A stretch of 64,000 nt of DNA from Armatimonadota bacterium (GTDB lineage Bacteria > Armatimonadota > Fimbriimonadia > Fimbriimonadales > Fimbriimonadaceae), in contig JACRPN010000021.1 of the NCBI GenBank assembly GCA_016223145.1, positions 62,001 through 126,000 on the forward strand, written 5' to 3'. This document shows, one piece after another, positions 6,513 through 44,683 of this stretch; positions within the stretch are counted from its first letter, which is position 1; every line of letters starts with the position of its first letter. The notes under the pieces were generated by a model. It saw nothing but the letters and a program-made list of their open reading frames with translations, did not search any database and was not told where the DNA came from. The translations under genes were made by a program, and so were the position numbers.

Positions 6513-9500
6513 ATGGATCCCAAAGACCGCAAGCAACCGCCTGACAACACGCTTCTGGCGCGATGGCGCGAAACCGGCGAGTGGTGGTCCGGCGCCCCAC
6601 AGCTTGAGTTTGCGCGTTATCTCGATGGGCGAGGCATTCGGCGTGAGAAGTCTAGGGAGGGACCCAGCATCGGCCAGTTCCGTTCGACGCCACCCAAGCC
6701 CGAGGATCAGGACTACCACGACGAATGGAACCTGCGCCTGAAGAAGACGCGCGACGAGAAGGTCGCCAAAGCCTGCGGCCTCATCCCCAAAGAGAGGATT
6801 TTGGAGGATGAAGCCACCTCGCCCCATCGGGGAGAGGTCGGTGAACGAAGTGAACCGGGTGAGGGGGGAATGGGTCCGAGGTCTCAGGTCCGAGGTCCGG
6901 GTCCCGAGGGGAAACAGGGACAAAGGGACGAAGGGACAAAGGGACGGAATCCCACCTCGCCCCATCGGGGAGAGGTCGGTGAACGAAGTGAACCGGGTGA
7001 GGGGGGAATGCAATCACCTCGTGAACGCAAAAAGGAAGAAACCCTCTCCATCGGTGAAGCACTGACCCCCTATGGCGTCTCACGAAAAGAGGTAGGCCGC
7101 GCCAGAAGGCTCGGAACGCTCACCGAACTGAGCCCGCAACACGCGATCAGAACCTCGAAACTACATAGCGTCTCGAACTCGACAAAACCTCTAGAGCGCA
7201 ACTCCAGAGGAGCATTGCCGAGACCAAAGGGCCGACCTGCTGGAGCGAAGGGCGAAGCCCTGGACCGTGGCGCCCAATCGGAGCCAAGCCCCGAAGGGAC
7301 GACACGACTGACCCTACCCTACGCCCCATTACACCTCTACACCGGATACGCCTTTGGCCGGGGCACCATGCTCGCCGAGGAAATCCCGCTCATTTGTGCT
7401 GCGGCCGGCATCAAGGTGGCTGCCATCGCCGATCCGTTCGCACTCACGGGCTGCGTCGAGTTCGTCAAGCGGTCAAAAGCCTCCGGCATCAAACCCCTGG
7501 TCGGTGCCAGCGTCCAACTGCCCGAGGGCGGCTGGCTGGTGCTCATCGCCAAAACCAAGGTGGGCTACCAGAGCCTCTCGGAGCTGCTTTCCGCGTGCCA
7601 TCTGGATGAGCCCAGGCAGTTCCCCATGGCCACTTGGTCCCGTCTGCAACGTTACAGCCGCGATCTGATCTGCCTGACCGGAGGTGACATCGGTCCGCTG
7701 GATCGCTTGCTTGTTCAAGGCCAACTCCCAGAAGCGCAAAAACTTGTCGAGCGGCTTTGCGAGATCTACGGGCGCTCGAACGTCGCCATCGAAATCGAGA
7801 TGAGCTATCTGCCCTGGCAGATCGTCGCCAACCGCCGCCTGCTCGAACTGGCGGAGGCCTGCGAAGTCCTGCCCGTAGCGGGGGGTTGCATCACCCACGC
7901 AAGGCCGCAACACTTCCCCGCCCAGGACATGCTCGTCTGCGCCGAGACGCTGTGCACCGTCGACGAGATCATCGGGCGCAAGCTCCAGCGGGAAGCCAGC
8001 CAGCCTCAACTCGACCCGCGCCCCGAGCGAGCCATCAACGCCGAGCGCTACCTGAGAACCCCAGCCGAGATGACGCGCCTCTTCGTCGACCGTCCGGACC
8101 TTCTCGAAAACACCCTCCGTATCGCGGATCGCTGCGAGGACGACGTGCTGCCAGGGCGCACCCGTCTGCCCGAAATCTTCCCGGACCCCTGCCACGCATT
8201 GAGGGAAATCACGTTGGCGGGGGCTCACCAGCACTATGGGACGATGCAGCCCAGGCTCAAAAGGCGCATCGAGCAGGAGCTTTCCCGCATCAACGCGCTC
8301 AACTTCGCCGACCACTTTCTCGCGATTTGGGACGCCTGCAATTGGGCTCGCGAGCAGGGCATCCAGTTCAGCGGACGGGGGTCGGTGGTGGATTCCGCCG
8401 TCGCGTATTGCCTGGGGCTCTCGCGCATCGACGCCTTCAAGCACAACCTCCACTTCGACCGATTCCTGCCCGCAGATGGCAGCAAGCGCCCGGATATCGA
8501 CGTCGACTTCGAGGCGCGGCGACGCGACGACGTCAGGCTCTATTTCGCTCGCAAGTACGGCGAGGACAGGGTTGCCGGCATCTCCGCCATCGGTGCTTAT
8601 TGCACGCGTGGCATCATCCGGGAAGTCGGCAAAGCGCTGGGACTACCCAACGAAACCATCGGGTTCCTGGCCAAGAAAGTGCACGGGGGAATCCCTCCCG
8701 ACCAGCTTGAATCGGCGCTCACCAGCAGGCCCGAATTGGCGGGTTCGGGGATTCCCAAAGAGCGGTTCCGCTGGGTCTTTGAACTCTCGGAGAGGCTGAT
8801 GGACATCCCGCGCAACATGCGCTCCCACTCGAGCGGCCTGCTGCTCTCCAGCCGCCCGATCCGCGAGACCGCCCCGCTCCTCTGGAGCGCCTCACCGTTT
8901 TCCATGGAGCGGATCCCGAGTAATGGTGATCAGGTTTTCAGGTTTTCAGGTTTTCAGGATTATTCAGCAGCTATTGCCCACTCTGACGATAGACATCTCG
9001 CCCCTGAGCACCTGAGCACCCAAAACCTGAACACCACTTCCTCCCCCCTCTTCCCCATCATCCAGTGGGACAAACGCTCGGCCAAGCACTTCTTCGACAA
9101 GTTCGACATCCTCTGCCTGCGCGGCCAGGACGTGCTTTCGGGAACCCAAGAGCGCATACGGCTGAGAGCGAGGTCTGAGGTCCGATGCCCGAGGTCCGAG
9201 GCATCGCGAAGCGAGGAATCTGATCGTCATCCTCTTTGCGATAGTCAAATAAAGTCTGTTTCAGGGGAGAGTCACAGCAGATTCCTCGCTTCGCTCGGAA
9301 TGACGCCGGCACCGATTCCCTCCCCCCAGCACCCAGCACCCAACACCCAACACCATCCCTACGCCGATTTCAGCGTTGAGCGCCTCCCCACCGACGATGA
9401 GGAAACCTACCGCGCCATGCGCTCGGGGGAACTCATCGGCATCCCGCAATCCGCATCGCCCGCCATGCGCCAGGCACACATTCGCCTGAGAACCCAAGAC

Positions 9501-11120
9501 CTGCACGACGCGAGCTTGGTTCAAGCGGGCATCCGCCCGGGGGTCGGCGGCGCCGTCAAGATCAACGAACTGATCGCCCGGCGGCGGGGCAAGCCCTACT
9601 CCTTCGAGCACCCCGAACTGGAGCGCATTCTGGGACTGACCTACGGGATCATCGTGTTTCAGGAGCAGGTCGACCAACTCTTGCAGACCTTCTGTGGCTA
9701 CACCAGCGGCGAGGCCGAGGACATGCGCGAGGCGATCCACAAGCGCCGAAGTGAAGATTACGGCCGGCAAATGAAGGAGCAGATCGTGGCCAAAGTGCTC
9801 TCGAACGGCTTCAGCGCGTCCGTTGCGGAGCAGGTCTACGATTACGTCTCGGGTTTTAAGGGCTATGGGTTCGCCCAGGGCCATGCCCTCGCGTTCGCTG
9901 AGATTTCCATCCGCTCCATCTATTGCCAGCAGAACTTCCCCGCCGAGTATTTCGCGGCCCTGCTGACCGCCCAGCCGGCGGGCTATTACGGCGAGAGCAC
10001 GCTCTGCAACGAGGCACGCATTCGCGGTGTGAAGATGCTCCCTCCAGATGTGAACCTAAGCCAGGTCACCTATTCGGTCGAAGACGTGAAGTCGGACATG
10101 GATCCGAAGATCGTGCTGCCCAACGCCGCGATCCGGGTTGGACTCATGCGCGTGCAAGGGCTATCAAAGGAGACAAGGGAGAGGATCACCAGAGGTGATG
10201 GGGATGGTGAGAATTGTATGTATGGTGAGAGTGGTGAGAGTTGTCTCCGGAACGACTCTCACCATGCGTACAATCCTCACCACTCTCACCACTCTCACCA
10301 TCCTCACCAGTTCTTTTCCTTCTTCGACTTCGTCCTGCGCGTCCGACCCGACCGTGACGAGCTTGAGAACCTCATCCTTTGCGGTGCGCTGGACTCCCTG
10401 CATCCCAACCGCCGAGCCCTGCTCTGGGCAATCCCAAGCGCGATAGAGTTCGCGGAATTGCACGGGGCGATGCACGATGCGCGAATAAAGAGAAGTGGTT
10501 CTCAGGTGGTCGGGTTGTCAGGTCTTCCGGTCCGGCCTGAAAACCCAACACCCGAGAACCTGAACACCCCAGCACGTCGTAAACCGTCAATCTCAAATCG
10601 TAAATCCGAAATTCCCCTCCCCCTCTCCTTCCCCGAACCCGAACTCCCCACAGGCATCGAGGACTTCTCAGAAGCTGAGAAGGCGGTCTTTGAGCGCAGT
10701 CTCCTGGGCCTCGACGTCGAGCGGCACCTGATGGCGTTTGAACGGGAGCGAGTACGAAACCGTGGCGGGATCACCTGCCTTGAAGCGAAATCTCTCGCAC
10801 CCGGCCGCAAAACGATCGTCGTCGGCAACCCGATCCGGCTGCGCTTCCCACCGACGCCCAGCGGAAAGCGCGTGGTGTTTTTCGACCTGGAAGACGAAAC
10901 GGGGCTCCTGAATGTGACTTGCTTCGACGCCACGTACCGGCGGGATGGGCACGCCATCGTGTGCTCACCTTACGTGACGCTGATTGGTGTGGCACAGGAT
11001 CGAGACGGCCACACGGCCTTCCTGGCGCAGAGGGTCTTCCCCTATCACCCCGTCCTCGGCAAGCTCACCCCCGCCGATACGGCGCTACCCCTCACCACGG
11101 CCGATTTCTTAGCGCAATAA
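6513..11120 (+). CDS. dnaE2: Error-prone DNA polymerase III alpha subunit DnaE2/ImuC with in-frame repeat insertions
   Basis: Translesion polymerase of the ImuB/DnaE2 mutasome. The PHP domain begins near residue 270 (YAPLHLYTG), the palm carries GRGSVVDS and the acidic PDIDVDF (Asp 661/663/665) with the third Asp in KFDIL (865), then YGIIVFQEQV, the HhH region and a C-terminal OB-fold near 1410-1500. At 1535 residues it is some 400 longer than usual DnaE2 (about 1050-1150). Much of the excess is repeat-like, low-complexity inserts at about residues 101-166, 805-846, 882-949, 1227-1267 and 1328-1369, whose DNA matches intergenic repeat families in this window. Catalytic motifs are intact and no stop interrupts the frame. 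A short N-terminal segment with GEWW (residues 14-50) precedes the first insert. Confidence 0.92.
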   Translation: MDPKDRKQPPDNTLLARWRETGEWWSGAPQLEFARYLDGRGIRREKSREGPSIGQFRSTPPKPEDQDYHDEWNLRLKKTRDEKVAKACGLIPKERILEDEATSPHRGEVGERSEPGEGGMGPRSQVRGPGPEGKQGQRDEGTKGRNPTSPHRGEVGERSEPGEGGMQSPRERKKEETLSIGEALTPYGVSRKEVGRARRLGTLTELSPQHAIRTSKLHSVSNSTKPLERNSRGALPRPKGRPAGAKGEALDRGAQSEPSPEGTTRLTLPYAPLHLYTGYAFGRGTMLAEEIPLICAAAGIKVAAIADPFALTGCVEFVKRSKASGIKPLVGASVQLPEGGWLVLIAKTKVGYQSLSELLSACHLDEPRQFPMATWSRLQRYSRDLICLTGGDIGPLDRLLVQGQLPEAQKLVERLCEIYGRSNVAIEIEMSYLPWQIVANRRLLELAEACEVLPVAGGCITHARPQHFPAQDMLVCAETLCTVDEIIGRKLQREASQPQLDPRPERAINAERYLRTPAEMTRLFVDRPDLLENTLRIADRCEDDVLPGRTRLPEIFPDPCHALREITLAGAHQHYGTMQPRLKRRIEQELSRINALNFADHFLAIWDACNWAREQGIQFSGRGSVVDSAVAYCLGLSRIDAFKHNLHFDRFLPADGSKRPDIDVDFEARRRDDVRLYFARKYGEDRVAGISAIGAYCTRGIIREVGKALGLPNETIGFLAKKVHGGIPPDQLESALTSRPELAGSGIPKERFRWVFELSERLMDIPRNMRSHSSGLLLSSRPIRETAPLLWSASPFSMERIPSNGDQVFRFSGFQDYSAAIAHSDDRHLAPEHLSTQNLNTTSSPLFPIIQWDKRSAKHFFDKFDILCLRGQDVLSGTQERIRLRARSEVRCPRSEASRSEESDRHPLCDSQIKSVSGESHSRFLASLGMTPAPIPSPQHPAPNTQHHPYADFSVERLPTDDEETYRAMRSGELIGIPQSASPAMRQAHIRLRTQDLHDASLVQAGIRPGVGGAVKINELIARRRGKPYSFEHPELERILGLTYGIIVFQEQVDQLLQTFCGYTSGEAEDMREAIHKRRSEDYGRQMKEQIVAKVLSNGFSASVAEQVYDYVSGFKGYGFAQGHALAFAEISIRSIYCQQNFPAEYFAALLTAQPAGYYGESTLCNEARIRGVKMLPPDVNLSQVTYSVEDVKSDMDPKIVLPNAAIRVGLMRVQGLSKETRERITRGDGDGENCMYGESGESCLRNDSHHAYNPHHSHHSHHPHQFFSFFDFVLRVRPDRDELENLILCGALDSLHPNRRALLWAIPSAIEFAELHGAMHDARIKRSGSQVVGLSGLPVRPENPTPENLNTPARRKPSISNRKSEIPLPLSFPEPELPTGIEDFSEAEKAVFERSLLGLDVERHLMAFERERVRNRGGITCLEAKSLAPGRKTIVVGNPIRLRFPPTPSGKRVVFFDLEDETGLLNVTCFDATYRRDGHAIVCSPYVTLIGVAQDRDGHTAFLAQRVFPYHPVLGKLTPADTALPLTTADFLAQ
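6814..7010 (+). repeat. Two exact 59-bp repeat copies (family A) inside dnaE2
   Basis: Bases 6814-6872 and 6952-7010 are identical over 59 bp. They are 138 bp apart (46 codons), so both are read in the same frame, as TSPHRGEVGERSEPGEGGM. Between them is a family B tract built from GGGACAAAGGGAC units (6913-6949). Diverged copies of family A lie between genes at 28947-29025 and 44749-44830, both in reverse orientation. Confidence 0.9.
8925..9050 (+). repeat. CAGGTTTTCAGG-type inverted repeat (family C) inside dnaE2
   Basis: Tandem GGTTTTCA units on the left face CCTGAGCACC and AACCTGAACACC units on the right, so the RNA could fold into a long imperfect hairpin. It is translated in frame within residues 805-846. 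The same family lies between genes at 20998-21088 and again in dnaE2 at 10494-10590. Confidence 0.8.
9156..9357 (+). repeat. Composite hairpin repeat (GCGAAGCGAGGAATCTG/CAGATTCCTCGCTTCGC) inside dnaE2
   Basis: The left arm GCGAAGCGAGGAATCTG and the right arm CAGATTCCTCGCTTCGC are exact reverse complements about 60 bases apart. They are followed by tandem CCCAGCACCCAGCACC units at 9323-9355. The segment is translated in frame (residues 882-949) just after the third catalytic aspartate region. Confidence 0.8.
10191..10311 (+). repeat. GTGAGAGT/ACTCTCAC inverted repeat (family D) inside dnaE2
   Basis: GGTGAGAGTGGTGAGAG-type units are followed by their complement, CTCACCACTCTCACC-type units, giving a histidine-rich in-frame insert (residues 1227-1267). 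The same units occupy the gap upstream of hslU (20401-20670). Confidence 0.8.
10494..10617 (+). repeat. Second family C inverted repeat inside dnaE2
   Basis: CTCAGGTGGTCGGG and GTCAGGTCTTCCGG units face CCTGAAAACCCAACACC and GAACCTGAACACCCC units. The segment is translated in frame (residues 1328-1369) between the HhH region and the C-terminal OB-fold. Confidence 0.75.
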
Positions 11121-11135
11121 GCTCCCGACACCCGG

Positions 11136-12098
11136 TCACGACCTTAGTCGAAATCCAAGTCTGCGCGCCGAAATCCCCACTACACAAACACCCAGTGCCG
11201 ATCCAAGCACGATCAGACCCCAACCCAGTGGCGCATTTCGTTGCTCATTTTGTGCCTTATCCGAGACCTCAACCAATTTCCACGATCCGTCCGGCTGTAC
11301 CAAGTAATGCTTTCCCTCCTCGATCAGTCCGATTGTGGACCCAGGCGGAAAGGCAGGTTCAAACGCCCTACCATCAACCGGCCTGAAACTAACCTTGTCC
11401 ACGACCAACGTACATGCATAAAGAGGTTTTCCCGGATCGCTCCTATGATACGACTTGAACTCGACCTTCTCAGGGAAACCACTCCCTAAGCGCGAAATGA
11501 CCCTATGTTCCAACACGACGTCGTTTGGCCCGGACCGGCCGACCCGAACGACATCAGGTGTCTTTTGAGAGGCAAATTCGACTTCCAGCAAACGCTCGCG
11601 AGGAAGTCGAGCAGTAAGGCGCTCGCCGCCGTTCTTGAGCCGCATCACAGTTGGCCGCGGCCCAATAGCATCAATAAGGGATCCCGACCCAAAGCGCAAG
11701 AATGTCTCGATCGGTGACCGGCTCGAATGTCGGCGATTGCCAATTGCTGCGCTAACAGCCCCATTCGGATCCTCTGGATTGACGCCAATGGAAACGGACC
11801 TCTCGTCAGCAAAGATATCGATCATCGGTGGCAGCTCGGCTCGCTCCCTGAGGCTAGCATCCAGAGGCGTCCTGACGCATAGTTCATCGTTGCCTCTGTA
11901 TTTTAGCTGCACATGCCAATTGGTGATTGATGGCTTCTCACCGTATGTGTGCTCAATCATCCAGTACGACAGGTCGCCGGCATTCCAGGACTCGACGGCC
12001 TCGCGCCATGCCCTGATCCGATCGCCTGCCATCGCGAACGGCAAGGTAGCAGCTGTTAGGCAACAGAGAAGTAATCCCCGACAGAGATTTGTCCTCAT
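11136..12098 (-). CDS. Exported hypothetical protein with C-terminal membrane anchor
   Basis: I do not recognise a family. ATG 12098 begins a signal peptide (MRTNLCRGLLLCCLTAATLP, cleavage likely near AMA) and has a G-rich stretch upstream. The mature part is about 260 residues, rich in beta-type segments, and resembles in style the outer-membrane-lipoprotein-sorting LolA/LolB-like fold (FRLRFGSGSLIDAIG, then a region ending in PVDGRAFEPAFP), but this is only impression. One hydrophobic segment near the C-terminus (WGLIVLGSALGVCVVGISA) should anchor it with a short basic tail. It is convergent with dnaE2, 15 bases away. Confidence 0.6.
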   Translation of the reverse strand: MRTNLCRGLLLCCLTAATLPFAMAGDRIRAWREAVESWNAGDLSYWMIEHTYGEKPSITNWHVQLKYRGNDELCVRTPLDASLRERAELPPMIDIFADERSVSIGVNPEDPNGAVSAAIGNRRHSSRSPIETFLRFGSGSLIDAIGPRPTVMRLKNGGERLTARLPRERLLEVEFASQKTPDVVRVGRSGPNDVVLEHRVISRLGSGFPEKVEFKSYHRSDPGKPLYACTLVVDKVSFRPVDGRAFEPAFPPGSTIGLIEEGKHYLVQPDGSWKLVEVSDKAQNEQRNAPLGWGLIVLGSALGVCVVGISARRLGFRLRS

Positions 12099-39827: not shown

Positions 39828-40778
39828 CTAGATGCGCGCGGCTCTGCGCGCGCCCAGACGCTTCACCGTCTCGTCGCCGATCACGCCGAGGAGAATCACC
39901 AATCCGATCACCGCAAACTCCAGCTGCGTGGCGATACCCAGGATGTTGATGGCGTTATAGAGCACCCTCACGATCGCCGTGCCGATCAGCACACCCAAAA
40001 TCGTGCCCGTCCCACCTCTCAGGCTGCACCCGCCCAGCACTGCCCCAGCAATCGCGTAGAGCTCATAGAAGTTGCCGTGGCCGCTGGGCTGGACGGAGTT
40101 CACGTCCAATCCGAAGATGATCCCGCCTATCCCCGCCAAGAGTGCGCTGATCATATAGGTCATCGTTACGGTGCGATCGGTGTTCACCCCGCTGTAGCGC
40201 GCGGCCTCCTCGTTGCCGCCCACGGCAAAGAGGTGCCTGCCGAACACCGAGAAGTTCAGCACCCAGCCCGCCAAGAGTGCCGTACCGATCAGCAGCACAA
40301 AAGGCATCGGAACGCCGAACGGCGCCCCCTTCGCGAGCAGTTTGAGGCCGTCATAACCGGTTCCATACCCCTGCGTGGCATCGCCCGTGATGTAGCGCGC
40401 CAGACCCCGGTAGACGAACAGCCCACACAGCGTGACGATGAACGGCTGGACCCGAACCTTGGTGATCAGCACCCCGTGGAGCCACCCAATGAAGAGCGCC
40501 AGGCCCAAGACGGCCAGCAGCGCCGGAAGCACCGGCCAGCCGCTCCCTACGAGCAGCATCGGCAGCAGCACCCCAGTGAGGCCCACCACCGACCCGATCG
40601 AAAGGTCGATGCCGCCGGTGATGATGACGAACGCCGCGCCGATGGTCAAGAGGCCGTAAAGTCCGGTCCACCGCGCGATGTTCGAGAGGTTGCCGACTTC
40701 CAGAAACTGAGGGTTCTTGAGCGCGGTGAGCATCACCACGGCCACCAGAATGCCGAAGATGCCCGCCACTCGCTTCAT
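39828..40778 (-). CDS. Ribose/sugar ABC transporter permease (RbsC type)
   Basis: Inner membrane permease of a carbohydrate importer. 316 residues from ATG 40778; 8-10 hydrophobic segments, with the RbsC signatures TGGIDLSIGSVVGLTGVLLPMLL, ALFIGWLHGVLITKVRVQPFIVTL, GVNTDRTVTMTYMISALLAGIGGIIFG and YELYAIAGAVLGGCSLRGGTGTILGVLIGTAIVRVL. It should work with the binding protein at 41176-42249. The ATPase (RbsA) that normally lies between or next to them is missing; a 397-base repeat-rich gap is there instead. Confidence 0.88.
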   Translation of the reverse strand: MKRVAGIFGILVAVVMLTALKNPQFLEVGNLSNIARWTGLYGLLTIGAAFVIITGGIDLSIGSVVGLTGVLLPMLLVGSGWPVLPALLAVLGLALFIGWLHGVLITKVRVQPFIVTLCGLFVYRGLARYITGDATQGYGTGYDGLKLLAKGAPFGVPMPFVLLIGTALLAGWVLNFSVFGRHLFAVGGNEEAARYSGVNTDRTVTMTYMISALLAGIGGIIFGLDVNSVQPSGHGNFYELYAIAGAVLGGCSLRGGTGTILGVLIGTAIVRVLYNAINILGIATQLEFAVIGLVILLGVIGDETVKRLGARRAARI

Positions 40779-41175
40779 AGATCTGCACTCCCACAAAGCC
40801 CGAAGGGGGCTGATCCCGAAGACGAATGCCTACGAACGCTGCATTGGCGCGCGGAAACGGCCGTCGCTGAGCCAACATCACCCGGACGGGACGTCTGCGC
40901 TATACCGGTTCTGGCAGATCCCAAAGGGATCTCAGAGAGGTGCCAGGGGTTGAGCGAAGCGAAACCCCTGGTTCGACGCCACCCCATTCCAGTCTCTGGT
41001 GACCCCAACGGGGTCAGAAGAGAGTAGCCAGGGGTTGAGCGAAGCGAAACCCTTGGCGGGTTCACTCCAACGCCCGCACCTCGCAAGAGGTGCCACCACT
41101 GCAGAACCCTGCCCCTCAACGGGTCTTCGCGAAGGCTCGCCGGCTGAGCGATCTCGGAGCGGGATGGACTCACGG
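40779..41175. other. Repeat-rich gap between binding protein and permease genes, where an ATPase gene would be expected
   Basis: 397 bases with no gene. It contains two tandem REP-like units and further short palindromes such as AAGGGGGCTGATCCCGAAG near 40803. A typical rbsA (about 1500 bases) could not fit. I see no recognisable ATPase remnant. Confidence 0.5.
40917..41056. repeat. Two tandem double-hairpin REP-like units
   Basis: Each unit has a first palindrome (GATCCCAAAGGGATC at 40917-40931; GACCCCAACGGGGTC at 41001-41015) and then a larger hairpin with arms CCAGGGGTT and AACCCCTGG around GAGCGAAGCGA (40943-40971; 41028-41056, one mismatch). Units repeat every 84-85 bases. No REP-associated transposase is in the window. 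Confidence 0.8.
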
Positions 41176-42249
41176 TCACTTCTCGGGCTTGCCACTCAGC
41201 TCGTCGATGATGCCGGCCTGGCGCTCCATTGCGTTCTGTGCGTCGATCTTGCCCACGAACAGCATCAGCTTGCCGCCGTTGGGCAGGGCTTCCTTGATCA
41301 GCTTGCCCGCCGCGCGGCCCGCACGATAGTTGTTGGTGCCGATGTAGCAAAGCCGCTTGCTGGCGGGGGCGTCGCTGTCCTGGGTGACCACGCTCATCAC
41401 ATCGCAGGCCTTGTTCAGCATGTCGACCTGGTTCTTCGGGTCCACCGGGCTGATGGCCATGCCGCTGATTTTCCTCGTAATCAGGTCTTCGACGATGCGC
41501 TGCTGCTCGGTTGGAGTGCCGTCCGCAGGCATCCTGAAGTCCACATTCACGCCAAGCTCACCCACGGCCTTGTTCACCCCTGCGCGGGCGATTTTCCAGA
41601 AGTCTGAGGCGTTGTTGGTGACAAAGGCAAAGCTCGCAGCGCCCACTTTGGCAGTCGGCGACGTCTCCCCGCTCTTCAGCCGCTCGGCAAGTTGGCCCTT
41701 AAAGCCCTCGACGTCTCCCTTCTTCAGGATTTGAATCGGGATGTCCATCACACCGTTCGCCGGGATGCCGGTTTTGTCGCCCTTTGCCAGCGAGGCCAGC
41801 AGCTTGACCGATTGGTAGCCAAACTCAAACGGCTGCTGCACGACCGTGCCCAGGATCGCCCCATCCAAGATTCCCTGAAGGGTGTCGGCCTCTTCGTCGA
41901 ACGCCACGATCTGGACCTTGCCCACCTTGTTTTGCCCTTGGACGGCACTCAGGATCGCCGGACCGTTATAGCTCCAGAGGCCCACCAGGCATCCGAGGTC
42001 GGAGTTGGCGGTCAGCGCGTCCTCAACGTTCTGCTTGGCCCGTGCACGGTCGGTGAGGTCGGTGCGGGTGTCGAGGATCGTCCACGCGCCGCACTTCACT
42101 TCGCCGGTCACACCGGTGATGGCAGCTTCCCTCCCGTCTTCCGGTGGTCCTGCCTCCTTCTCGATGATCTTGGGCGCTCCGCCCGAGCATCCAATGACGG
42201 TGAAGACGAAAAGAGCGGCGGCCAGCAGGCTCAGCGAAGCGGATTTCAT
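41176..42249 (-). CDS. Sugar-binding lipoprotein of an ABC importer, circularly permuted
   Basis: 357 residues, ATG 42249. Lipoprotein signal LSLLAAALFVFTVIGC ends in VIGC at residues 18-21. Residues 50-192 correspond to the usual C-terminal half of RbsB-type proteins: VKCGAWTILDTRTDLTDRARAKQNVEDAL, GLWSYNGPAILSAV, VVQQPFEFGYQSVKLLASLAKG. Residues 200-355 correspond to the usual N-terminal half: KVGAASFAFVTNNASDFWKIARAGV, RMPADGTPTEQQRIVEDL, ISPVDPKNQVDMLN, SKRLCYIGTNNYRAGR. The order is thus reversed compared with the family, with linker PIQILKKGDVEGFK...SGETSPTA joining the old C- and N-termini. The break lies between a C-lobe helix (MERQAGIIDEL) and the following strand. It may bind ribose- or xylose-like sugars. 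Confidence 0.85.
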   Translation of the reverse strand: MKSASLSLLAAALFVFTVIGCSGGAPKIIEKEAGPPEDGREAAITGVTGEVKCGAWTILDTRTDLTDRARAKQNVEDALTANSDLGCLVGLWSYNGPAILSAVQGQNKVGKVQIVAFDEEADTLQGILDGAILGTVVQQPFEFGYQSVKLLASLAKGDKTGIPANGVMDIPIQILKKGDVEGFKGQLAERLKSGETSPTAKVGAASFAFVTNNASDFWKIARAGVNKAVGELGVNVDFRMPADGTPTEQQRIVEDLITRKISGMAISPVDPKNQVDMLNKACDVMSVVTQDSDAPASKRLCYIGTNNYRAGRAAGKLIKEALPNGGKLMLFVGKIDAQNAMERQAGIIDELSGKPEK

Positions 42250-42343: not shown

Positions 42344-44683
42344 ATGGTGGGTCTCTCTGTTCTTGTCGCGTTGGCAATGGGGTATGGAGCTGTGGCGCCC
42401 CCTGATGAGGTGGCCCCAATCGCCATCGTTCCGGAGCCCGTGCAATGGGATCGCGCTGAAGGTTCCTTCAAGCTGGCCAAGGACACGCCGATCGTTGTTG
42501 CGGCCAACGAGTCTGGCGCTTATGGCGTGGCCTACACCCTTGCCGAATCGCTGAAGACCGGGCTGGGGGAAACGCCCAAGGTCCACGTCGGCGCCGTGAA
42601 CCCTCCGCCTCCCGGCGCGATCACGTTGACGACTTCAGGCGCGGACTTGACCCTGGGCGAGGAAGGCTACGAACTCAAGGTAACCGCCAATTCGGCGCTG
42701 GTGCGTGCGCCAACGGATACGGGGCTGGCACGAGGTATTCAGAGCCTGAGGCAGCTCTTGCCGCCCGAGTTTGAGGAGGGCAAACCCAGGGCCTCGTGGC
42801 AGATTCCCGGCATTTCGGTCCGCGATTGGCCCCGCTACCGTTGGCGGGGCATGCTGCTCGATTCGTGCCGCCACTTCTATTCCAAGGACTTCGTGAAGCG
42901 GGCGATCGACCTGCTCGCCTACCACAAGATGAACGTGCTGCACTGGCACCTCACCGAGGATCAGGGTTGGCGCATCGAGATCAAGAAGTACCCCAAACTC
43001 ACCGAGGTCGGTGCATTTCGCCAGGCGTCCGGCAACGACCAGGTCGGCGACCCCTTGCCGATTGAGACCGGTCTGAGAGCGGTCCATCCCGATCCTGGCC
43101 AACTCAAAGAATCTGGAAAGTACGGCGGTTTCTATACGCAGGCCGAGATCAAGGAGATCGTGGCTTACGCCGCAGCGCGCCGGGTGGCCATCGTTCCCGA
43201 GATCGAGATGCCCGGCCACGCCCTGGCGGCGCTGGCCACCTTCCCGGAGCTTTCCTGCACGGGAGGTCCGTTCCAAGTGGGCAACGAGTGGGGGGTGTAC
43301 TCCGACGTGTATTGCGCGGGGAACGACAAGGTTTTCGAGTTCCTTCAAGACGTGCTCAACGAGGTCATCGACCTCTTTCCTGGCACATACATTCACATTG
43401 GCGGGGATGAGGTGCCGAAGCAGCGCTGGCAGGCGTGCGCCAAGTGCCAAGCGCGCATGAAGGCCGAGGGACTCGCCGGCGAGCACGAACTCCAGAGTTG
43501 GTTCATTAAGCGGATCGACAAGTTCCTTACGTCGCGGGGCAAGCGGCTAATCGGGTGGGATGAGATCCTCGAGGGCGGGCTCTCCCCTGGGGCGACGGTT
43601 CAATCGTGGCGAAGCTTTGCTGGTGGGATCGCCGCCGCTCGAGCGGGGCACGACGTGATCATGTCGCCGACGAGCCACTGCTATCTCGACGCCCCGAACG
43701 AGTCCACGACCCTGGAGAGGGTCTACTCGTTCGAGCCGATGCCGGCCGAACTCGAAGCGTCGGGGGCCAAGTTCATCTTGGGGGGCGAAGGCAATCTCTG
43801 GTCCGAGCGCATCCCTCAAGGACGTTGGGATCGGCAGGCATTTCCCAGGCTCTCGGCGCTCTCGGAAGTGCTCTGGAGCCCGCGCGAGAAGCGCGTTTGG
43901 GACGACTTTGAGAAGCGTATCGACCCGCACCTGCGGCGGCTCTTCGGGATGGGCGTGCGCTACTACGTCCCGCCGCCGGTGTTCATCGACACGCCGACGG
44001 TCTTTACCGAGCGAACCACGGCTGCCTTCAAGGACCCCGTGAAGGGCGCTGCGCTCTTCTTTACACGGGACGGGAGCCTGCCTACGGCCCATTCCAGCCG
44101 CTACGCCGGCCCCATCGAGATCGCGGCTACAACGCGCCTTCGCGCGGTTGCGCTGTACCCCAACGGCGTTGCGAGCGAATCTGTCAGCCGGACCTTCCGC
44201 AAGGAGCCCTACCTCGACGCTTTGAGCCCGGCGCCAACGGTGGAAGCGGGGGTGGACGTCCGCTACTTCGAGGGCACGTGGCTGCGGATTCCCGAATTCT
44301 CCGCGATGACGCCCGCCGCTTCCGGCGTTGCTAAACGCGTTGGCCTCGAACTCCGGAAGCGGGACTTCGACTTCGCCCTCGAGTTCACCGGCTACCTGAG
44401 CGCCCCAGCCGACGGGATCTACACGTTCTTCCTCGAATCGGATGACGGGAGTGTCCTCTGGGTCGACGGCAAGCCAGTGGTCAACAACGATGGGATCCAC
44501 CCTCCAACAGAGCGCTCGGGGCAGGTAGCCCTGCGCAAGGGCTTTCACACCGTGCGAGTCGGATTCTTCCAGGGCTCCCAGGCTCTCGTACTGAACCTGA
44601 AATGGGCGCCTCCAGGCGGACAGAAATCTGGACTGGATTCGGCGCTCTTTCGGGCAGTCGCCCCCAGGGGCGGCCGCCGATAG
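42344..44683 (+). CDS. Secreted GH20 beta-N-acetylhexosaminidase with PA14 domain
   Basis: Releases terminal N-acetylglucosamine/galactosamine. 779 residues from ATG 42344; signal peptide VGLSVLVALAMGYGAVA. The GH20b domain is at about residues 28-155, then the TIM barrel starting YRWRGMLLDSCRHFYSKDFVKRAIDLLAYHKMNVLHWHLTEDQGWRIEI, with the catalytic Asp-Glu pair in YIHIGGDEVPK and IPEIEMPGHALA-like IVPEIEMPGHA. A chitobiase C-terminal-like domain (FTRDGSLPTAHSSRY) and a PA14-type module (YTFFLESDDGSVLWVDGKPVV) follow. Divergent from the sugar-binding protein 94 bases away, so its products may be its cargo. Confidence 0.92.
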   Translation: MVGLSVLVALAMGYGAVAPPDEVAPIAIVPEPVQWDRAEGSFKLAKDTPIVVAANESGAYGVAYTLAESLKTGLGETPKVHVGAVNPPPPGAITLTTSGADLTLGEEGYELKVTANSALVRAPTDTGLARGIQSLRQLLPPEFEEGKPRASWQIPGISVRDWPRYRWRGMLLDSCRHFYSKDFVKRAIDLLAYHKMNVLHWHLTEDQGWRIEIKKYPKLTEVGAFRQASGNDQVGDPLPIETGLRAVHPDPGQLKESGKYGGFYTQAEIKEIVAYAAARRVAIVPEIEMPGHALAALATFPELSCTGGPFQVGNEWGVYSDVYCAGNDKVFEFLQDVLNEVIDLFPGTYIHIGGDEVPKQRWQACAKCQARMKAEGLAGEHELQSWFIKRIDKFLTSRGKRLIGWDEILEGGLSPGATVQSWRSFAGGIAAARAGHDVIMSPTSHCYLDAPNESTTLERVYSFEPMPAELEASGAKFILGGEGNLWSERIPQGRWDRQAFPRLSALSEVLWSPREKRVWDDFEKRIDPHLRRLFGMGVRYYVPPPVFIDTPTVFTERTTAAFKDPVKGAALFFTRDGSLPTAHSSRYAGPIEIAATTRLRAVALYPNGVASESVSRTFRKEPYLDALSPAPTVEAGVDVRYFEGTWLRIPEFSAMTPAASGVAKRVGLELRKRDFDFALEFTGYLSAPADGIYTFFLESDDGSVLWVDGKPVVNNDGIHPPTERSGQVALRKGFHTVRVGFFQGSQALVLNLKWAPPGGQKSGLDSALFRAVAPRGGRR

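Follow-up and report, generated by a model that had tools for sequence, protein, structure and literature searches.

A natural circularly permuted sugar-binding lipoprotein of probable CUT2 type from an Armatimonadota bacterium, and the probable repeated permutation of its family at an enlarged loop

The permuted gene and its protein

The window analyzed here, a 64,000-nucleotide stretch of a contig from an Armatimonadota bacterium, encodes a sugar-binding lipoprotein in which the two canonical halves occur in swapped order. Its gene lies upstream of a permease gene on the same strand, and the relevant features are as follows.

41176 to 42249, minus strand: gene for the permuted sugar-binding lipoprotein, 357 aa, order C1-C2-N (open reading frame list, Pfam Peripla_BP_4, colinear match to PDB 5ER3)
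42187 to 42249, minus strand: predicted signal peptide with lipobox (VIGC, Cys21) (sequence; similar motif in most relatives of every order)
41668 to 42102, minus strand: canonical C-terminal half (segments C1+C2, residues ~50-194), now first (segment HMMs, BLAST, AF2 secondary structure)
41638 to 41667, minus strand: new linker, residues ~195-204, between the former C- and N-termini (low pLDDT at 199-201; C2-N gap of relatives)
41179 to 41637, minus strand: canonical N-terminal half (residues ~205-357), now last (segment HMMs, BLAST)
40797 to 41175, no strand: intergenic stretch, site of the RbsA-like ATPase gene in relatives, with a dispersed repeat at ~40933-41096 (tblastn; genome copies)
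39828 to 40796, minus strand: gene for the operon's CUT2-type (RbsC-like) permease (Pfam BPD_transp_2; 63% identity with the permease encoded in the L006 operon)

The open reading frame is intact, with 357 codons and zero internal stops. A pattern scan across the family suggests that the product is a bacterial lipoprotein, as its N-terminal signal (MKSASLSLLAAALFVFTVIGC) is closed by the lipobox-like motif VIGC with Cys21; the original prediction that an export signal is retained at the new N-terminus is thus sustained. The Pfam profile Peripla_BP_4 matches the protein at 181.9 bits (cut-off 35.1) in two stretches, the better of which aligns residues 208-355 with positions 2-151 of the 258-position profile. 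Likewise, the glucose/xylose-binding protein of Thermotoga maritima (GBP; 3C6Q, 2H3H) matches as two pieces in swapped order: residues 212-351 align with chain positions 9-149 and residues 48-159 with 146-254. Segment HMMs and BLAST also place the C half before the N half, and the canonical N-to-C order is absent. It had been proposed, from peptides such as GLWSYNGPAI, that the C-terminal half follows the lipoprotein signal and the N-terminal half ends the protein. All of the quoted peptides are found in the translation, and the order is borne out by the matches to Peripla_BP_4, T. maritima GBP and 5ER3. The predicted new linker is also present: ~10-17 residues join the old termini, and the corresponding gap between segments C2 and N spans 15-23 aa in relatives of the same order. 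By fold and descent, the protein is a type I (cluster B) sugar-binding member with permuted topology. A divergent GH20 beta-hexosaminidase gene with a PA14 domain (42344-44683, plus strand) begins 95 bases upstream of the permuted gene.

Predicted fold and a crystal structure of the same order

The AF2 model of the window protein is a two-lobed alpha/beta structure (pLDDT 82, pTM 0.79) in which only residues 1-47 and 199-201 are of low confidence. In this model, the cut falls in the usual C-lobe between the last helix (338-351) and the first long strand (56-63), in agreement with the helix-strand position given in the original prediction.

The same exact order occurs in a crystal structure deposited in 2015, the ABC transporter solute-binding protein of Rhodopirellula baltica SH 1 (5ER3). 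Residues 50-355 of the window protein align with residues 24-333 of this chain as one colinear piece (E 4.8e-90), and the two proteins share the permuted order end to end at 45-46% identity. Superposition of the model on 5ER3 covers 310 residues and gives a structural Z of 36.5; the next chain, TpMglB-2, reaches a Z of 15. For most other solved relatives, the alignment takes in a single half, or roughly two thirds of the model at low identity. Because the colinear match is far beyond chance, the swapped order is natural. Misassembly as its source is ruled out by 5ER3 together with the same order in many genomes.

Relatives in permuted and standard order

Two permuted orders were distinguished: permA (C1-C2-N), which includes the window protein, and permB (C2-N-C1). 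There are 24 distinct permA sequences when the window protein and 5ER3 are counted, and the 22 further proteins, some on megabase contigs, answer the call for relatives of the same order. Scans detected this order in six of 291 genomes from the phylum to which the window belongs, in nine of the 392 genomes sampled from that of a Sedimentisphaerales MAG (G292), and in one of 388 from that of a Verrucomicrobiales MAG. With carriers in three phyla and 5ER3, the proposal of a natural circular permutation in a type I binding protein holds. The permA order is also found at three Verrucomicrobiota loci (L007-L009), and the taxonomic order to which the carrier of locus L010 belongs contributes five genomes. 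The group that contains 5ER3, labelled Pirellulales-like here, is a separate permA lineage from the window protein on the tree. Some proteins of this group carry long acidic/proline tails, and that of L120 (G677) has many EEAPK repeats.

The permB order is carried by two genomes (L123, G481:C7:138115; L124, G660:C1:1144666). Its cut is also in the C-lobe, between the helix ending in LEALDRAGRLGK and the strand VKVIAFDE. The N and C1 segments of permB proteins are mostly 53-59% identical to those of standard-order proteins of the same class. A GH20-like gene (L208, 11561-13645) also adjoins a permB gene.

Standard-order relatives differ in the loop at the permA cut site. This loop measures ~4-8 aa in nearly all short-loop proteins (12 by HMM boundaries in two close relatives) and 14-39 aa in the standard-order proteins nearest the permuted ones. 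In addition, loop residues of the standard long-loop relatives recur at the new termini of permuted proteins. For example, standard L054 reads VIDELAGKPVEKKFTIDKNFSGEVKLGKWTILDTRTD at this site, while the window protein ends in IIDELSGKPEK and its domain starts with TGEVKCGAWTILDTRTD; likewise, standard L223 reads VLDELAGTKDAKGPEKFGKYTLHH, while permuted L010 ends in VLDELAGAKNAQGK and starts with HYGKYTLHS. L054 matches T. maritima GBP and E. coli RbsB colinearly over its full length. In its model (pLDDT 91), the loop (~185-201) bridges helix 169-184 and strand 207-215 with confidence below that of its surroundings.

The original prediction missed three points: this topology was already in the PDB, permutation was apparently repeated, and the loop at the cut is enlarged in standard-order relatives.

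Phylogeny of the two orders

Trees were built on segments put in canonical order (N+C1+C2) and are limited by ~280 columns and long branches. The first tree (67 rows, short-loop root) placed permA proteins in four places, each supported. After relatives of L010 were added, the best tree contained six order changes, at least five of which are forced by supported branches, with 5-6 across bootstraps. The separate N-half and C-half trees gave six changes each. As the two halves are placed alike, the proteins are not chimeras of halves with different parents. In whole-domain, N-half, C-half and permease trees, permA proteins are interleaved with standard long-loop proteins. In the permease tree, L010 groups with the standard loci L053 and L211 at 100/99, and the permA operons of the Pirellulales-like group fall together with permB operons and standard long-loop ones at 96/97. 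Support for the long-loop clade itself is moderate, at 91/91 in the 67-row tree and 44/86 in the enlarged tree. The permB proteins are nested among standard long-loop proteins, and permB is a separate event from permA.

A single permA clade was rejected by AU tests on both the 67-row tree (p 3e-5) and the tree with L010 relatives added (p 2e-5). This was the only grouping defined before the trees were made; the others were picked afterwards, and their p values are uncorrected for number. Among these, groupings of all permA except L010 (p 0.003), of Armatimonadota with Pirellulales-like proteins (p 0.018) and of L010 with Pirellulales-like proteins (p 0.019) were rejected. The permA proteins of Armatimonadota could be joined with those of Verrucomicrobiota (p 0.11), and the latter with the Pirellulales-like group (p 0.08), without rejection.

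Operon, sugar contacts and predicted function

Most permA, permB and standard long-loop genes are found in an operon of the order solute-binding protein (SBP), RbsA-like ATPase and RbsC-like permease. In the L006 operon, genes named by eye as FGGY kinase and AraD-like are also found upstream. At the window locus, tblastn detected neither an ATPase gene nor a frameshifted remnant of one between the SBP and permease genes. A dispersed repeat lies in the 380-base gap between them, and 17 further partial copies of it occur elsewhere in the genome. On another contig, C9 (L129, G000:C9:197500-217400), a CUT2-type ATPase and permease are encoded at ~8112-11623 of this locus without an adjacent SBP and with a GH16 gene alongside; this ATPase is a match of 45-49% identity. 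Two copies of the dispersed repeat also lie on C9 (C9:205469 and C9:210298). Loci L005 and L205 have permuted SBP genes without a nearby CUT2-type ATPase or permease.

Sugar contacts were compared with the 13 classical contact residues of E. coli RbsB. The window protein keeps six of the 13 unchanged (F15, D89, R141, F214, D215 and Q235, corresponding to F217, D291, R343, F117, D118 and Q138), and these six are also identical in the standard relatives shown. F16 is replaced by tryptophan in the window protein (W218) and in all standard relatives shown. The remaining contacts differ from RbsB alike in permuted and standard order. Since the contact residues are largely kept, the window protein is best read as a working monosaccharide-binding lipoprotein, the ligand not necessarily being ribose; no NCBIfam equivalog that would name a ligand reached its cut-off for this protein. 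Transport by the window copy is uncertain because its operon is without an ATPase gene. The permutation would also have moved the lipid tether from the N-lobe to the C-lobe, which may affect docking.

Interpretation and alternatives

The window protein is probably a CUT2 sugar-binding lipoprotein of a family that has been permuted repeatedly at an enlarged C-lobe loop tolerant of new termini. It would serve as the substrate-binding lipoprotein of a ribose/glucose/xylose-type ABC importer, with the permuted chain folding as a normal two-lobed Venus flytrap, retaining the sugar contacts of each lobe and passing the bound monosaccharide to the RbsC-like permease. A long loop would have arisen after the first helix of the C-lobe, ahead of the next strand; new termini would then have been made inside it several separate times (permA), and one further cut would have been made in a neighboring C-lobe loop (permB). 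We consider it likely that the loop is an evolutionary hot spot, with at least five independent permutations there and one at the neighboring loop, and that close standard long-loop relatives of the pre-permutation type survive. At the DNA level, tandem duplication followed by trimming and re-fusion to the export signal, as suggested originally, is a plausible origin. Among the loci scanned, no open reading frame had the extra segments of a fused tandem intermediate (N-C-N-C or C-N-C); extra weak segment matches around operon loci came with a looser reporting cut.

Some of the order changes could be reversals from permA to standard order, which are hard to distinguish from gains. In the extreme case, one ancient permA permutation in the ancestor of the long-loop group would have been followed by repeated reversion, with the long loop of standard proteins as a rejoining scar. 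The Armatimonadota and Verrucomicrobiota permA groups do branch near the long-loop base, and a rejoined tail and linker would resemble a long loop. However, this history is quite unlikely: counted by hand on the rooted tree, it requires more order changes than independent gains do, although the count does not settle the matter for the deepest groups. Moreover, L010 and permB lie deep among standard long-loop proteins on supported branches, and the permease tree independently places L010 with standard L053 and L211. We regard it as highly unlikely that permA arose once and was scattered by long-branch or alignment artefacts. Some permA branches are indeed long and some pairwise joinings were not rejected, but the AU tests strongly reject one clade, and each half alone and the independent permease agree with the scatter.

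An assembly artefact or pseudogene in the window genome has a negligible probability. The assembly is split into 23 contigs, and the ATPase gene expected next to the SBP gene is missing; yet the crystal structure 5ER3 is colinear, the order is shared by many genomes, including single contigs of 3.8 Mb (permB, G660) and 6.4 Mb (permA, G635), the reading frame is intact and the contact residues are conserved. It is possible, if on balance unlikely, that the window copy no longer transports and is instead a sensor, a scavenging receptor or decaying, which would be compatible with the explanation proposed for the family. Consistent with such a loss, a dispersed repeat stands in place of the ATPase gene, and the SBP of L005 has neither partner; on the other hand, the SBP and permease reading frames are both intact, and the C9 ATPase and permease, which have no adjacent SBP, could act in trans.

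Most inferences of natural permutation come from isolated, old cases, which makes it hard to test how the process works and why a particular site tolerates it. In the present family, close relatives in both orders have an operon and a fold in common. With a precursor still visible as the long loop, and with two different cuts, the steps can be tested directly through sequencing and through measurements of binding and stability, and the family could serve to study the rearrangement of proteins in nature.

Comparison with known systems

In the open-licence literature searched, we did not find an earlier description of the recurrence, the precursor loop or the second cut. Nothing beyond TpMglB-2 was found there on natural permutation of such proteins in planctomycetes, nor any co-mention of 5ER3 and Rhodopirellula. 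Already known are a naturally permuted type I binding protein, TpMglB-2, and a structure of this exact order, 5ER3. The closest solved standard-order structure for the family is T. maritima GBP. This protein and E. coli RbsB have the same fold and most of the same contact residues as the window protein, but they have the standard order and no enlarged loop where the window protein is cut.

TpMglB-2 (Tp0684) of Treponema pallidum, assigned to 'Type Ic / Cluster Bc', is a naturally permuted type I sugar-binding lipoprotein that retains glucose binding and conformational change in vitro (PMC4990184). Its first three N-lobe strands are shifted to the C-terminus, with a fourth crossover added, and its authors raised a tethering idea for this protein (PMC4990184). 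In contrast, the window protein is cut in a C-lobe loop and is 11-13% identical to TpMglB-2. Membership of the 'Type Ic' class was ruled out, as the cut seen in the AF2 model differs from that described for TpMglB-2. The tolerance of ribose-binding protein lobes for permuted ends is known from engineered permuted halves of the T. maritima protein (PMC9815098); whereas those are designed single lobes, the window protein is natural and full-length.
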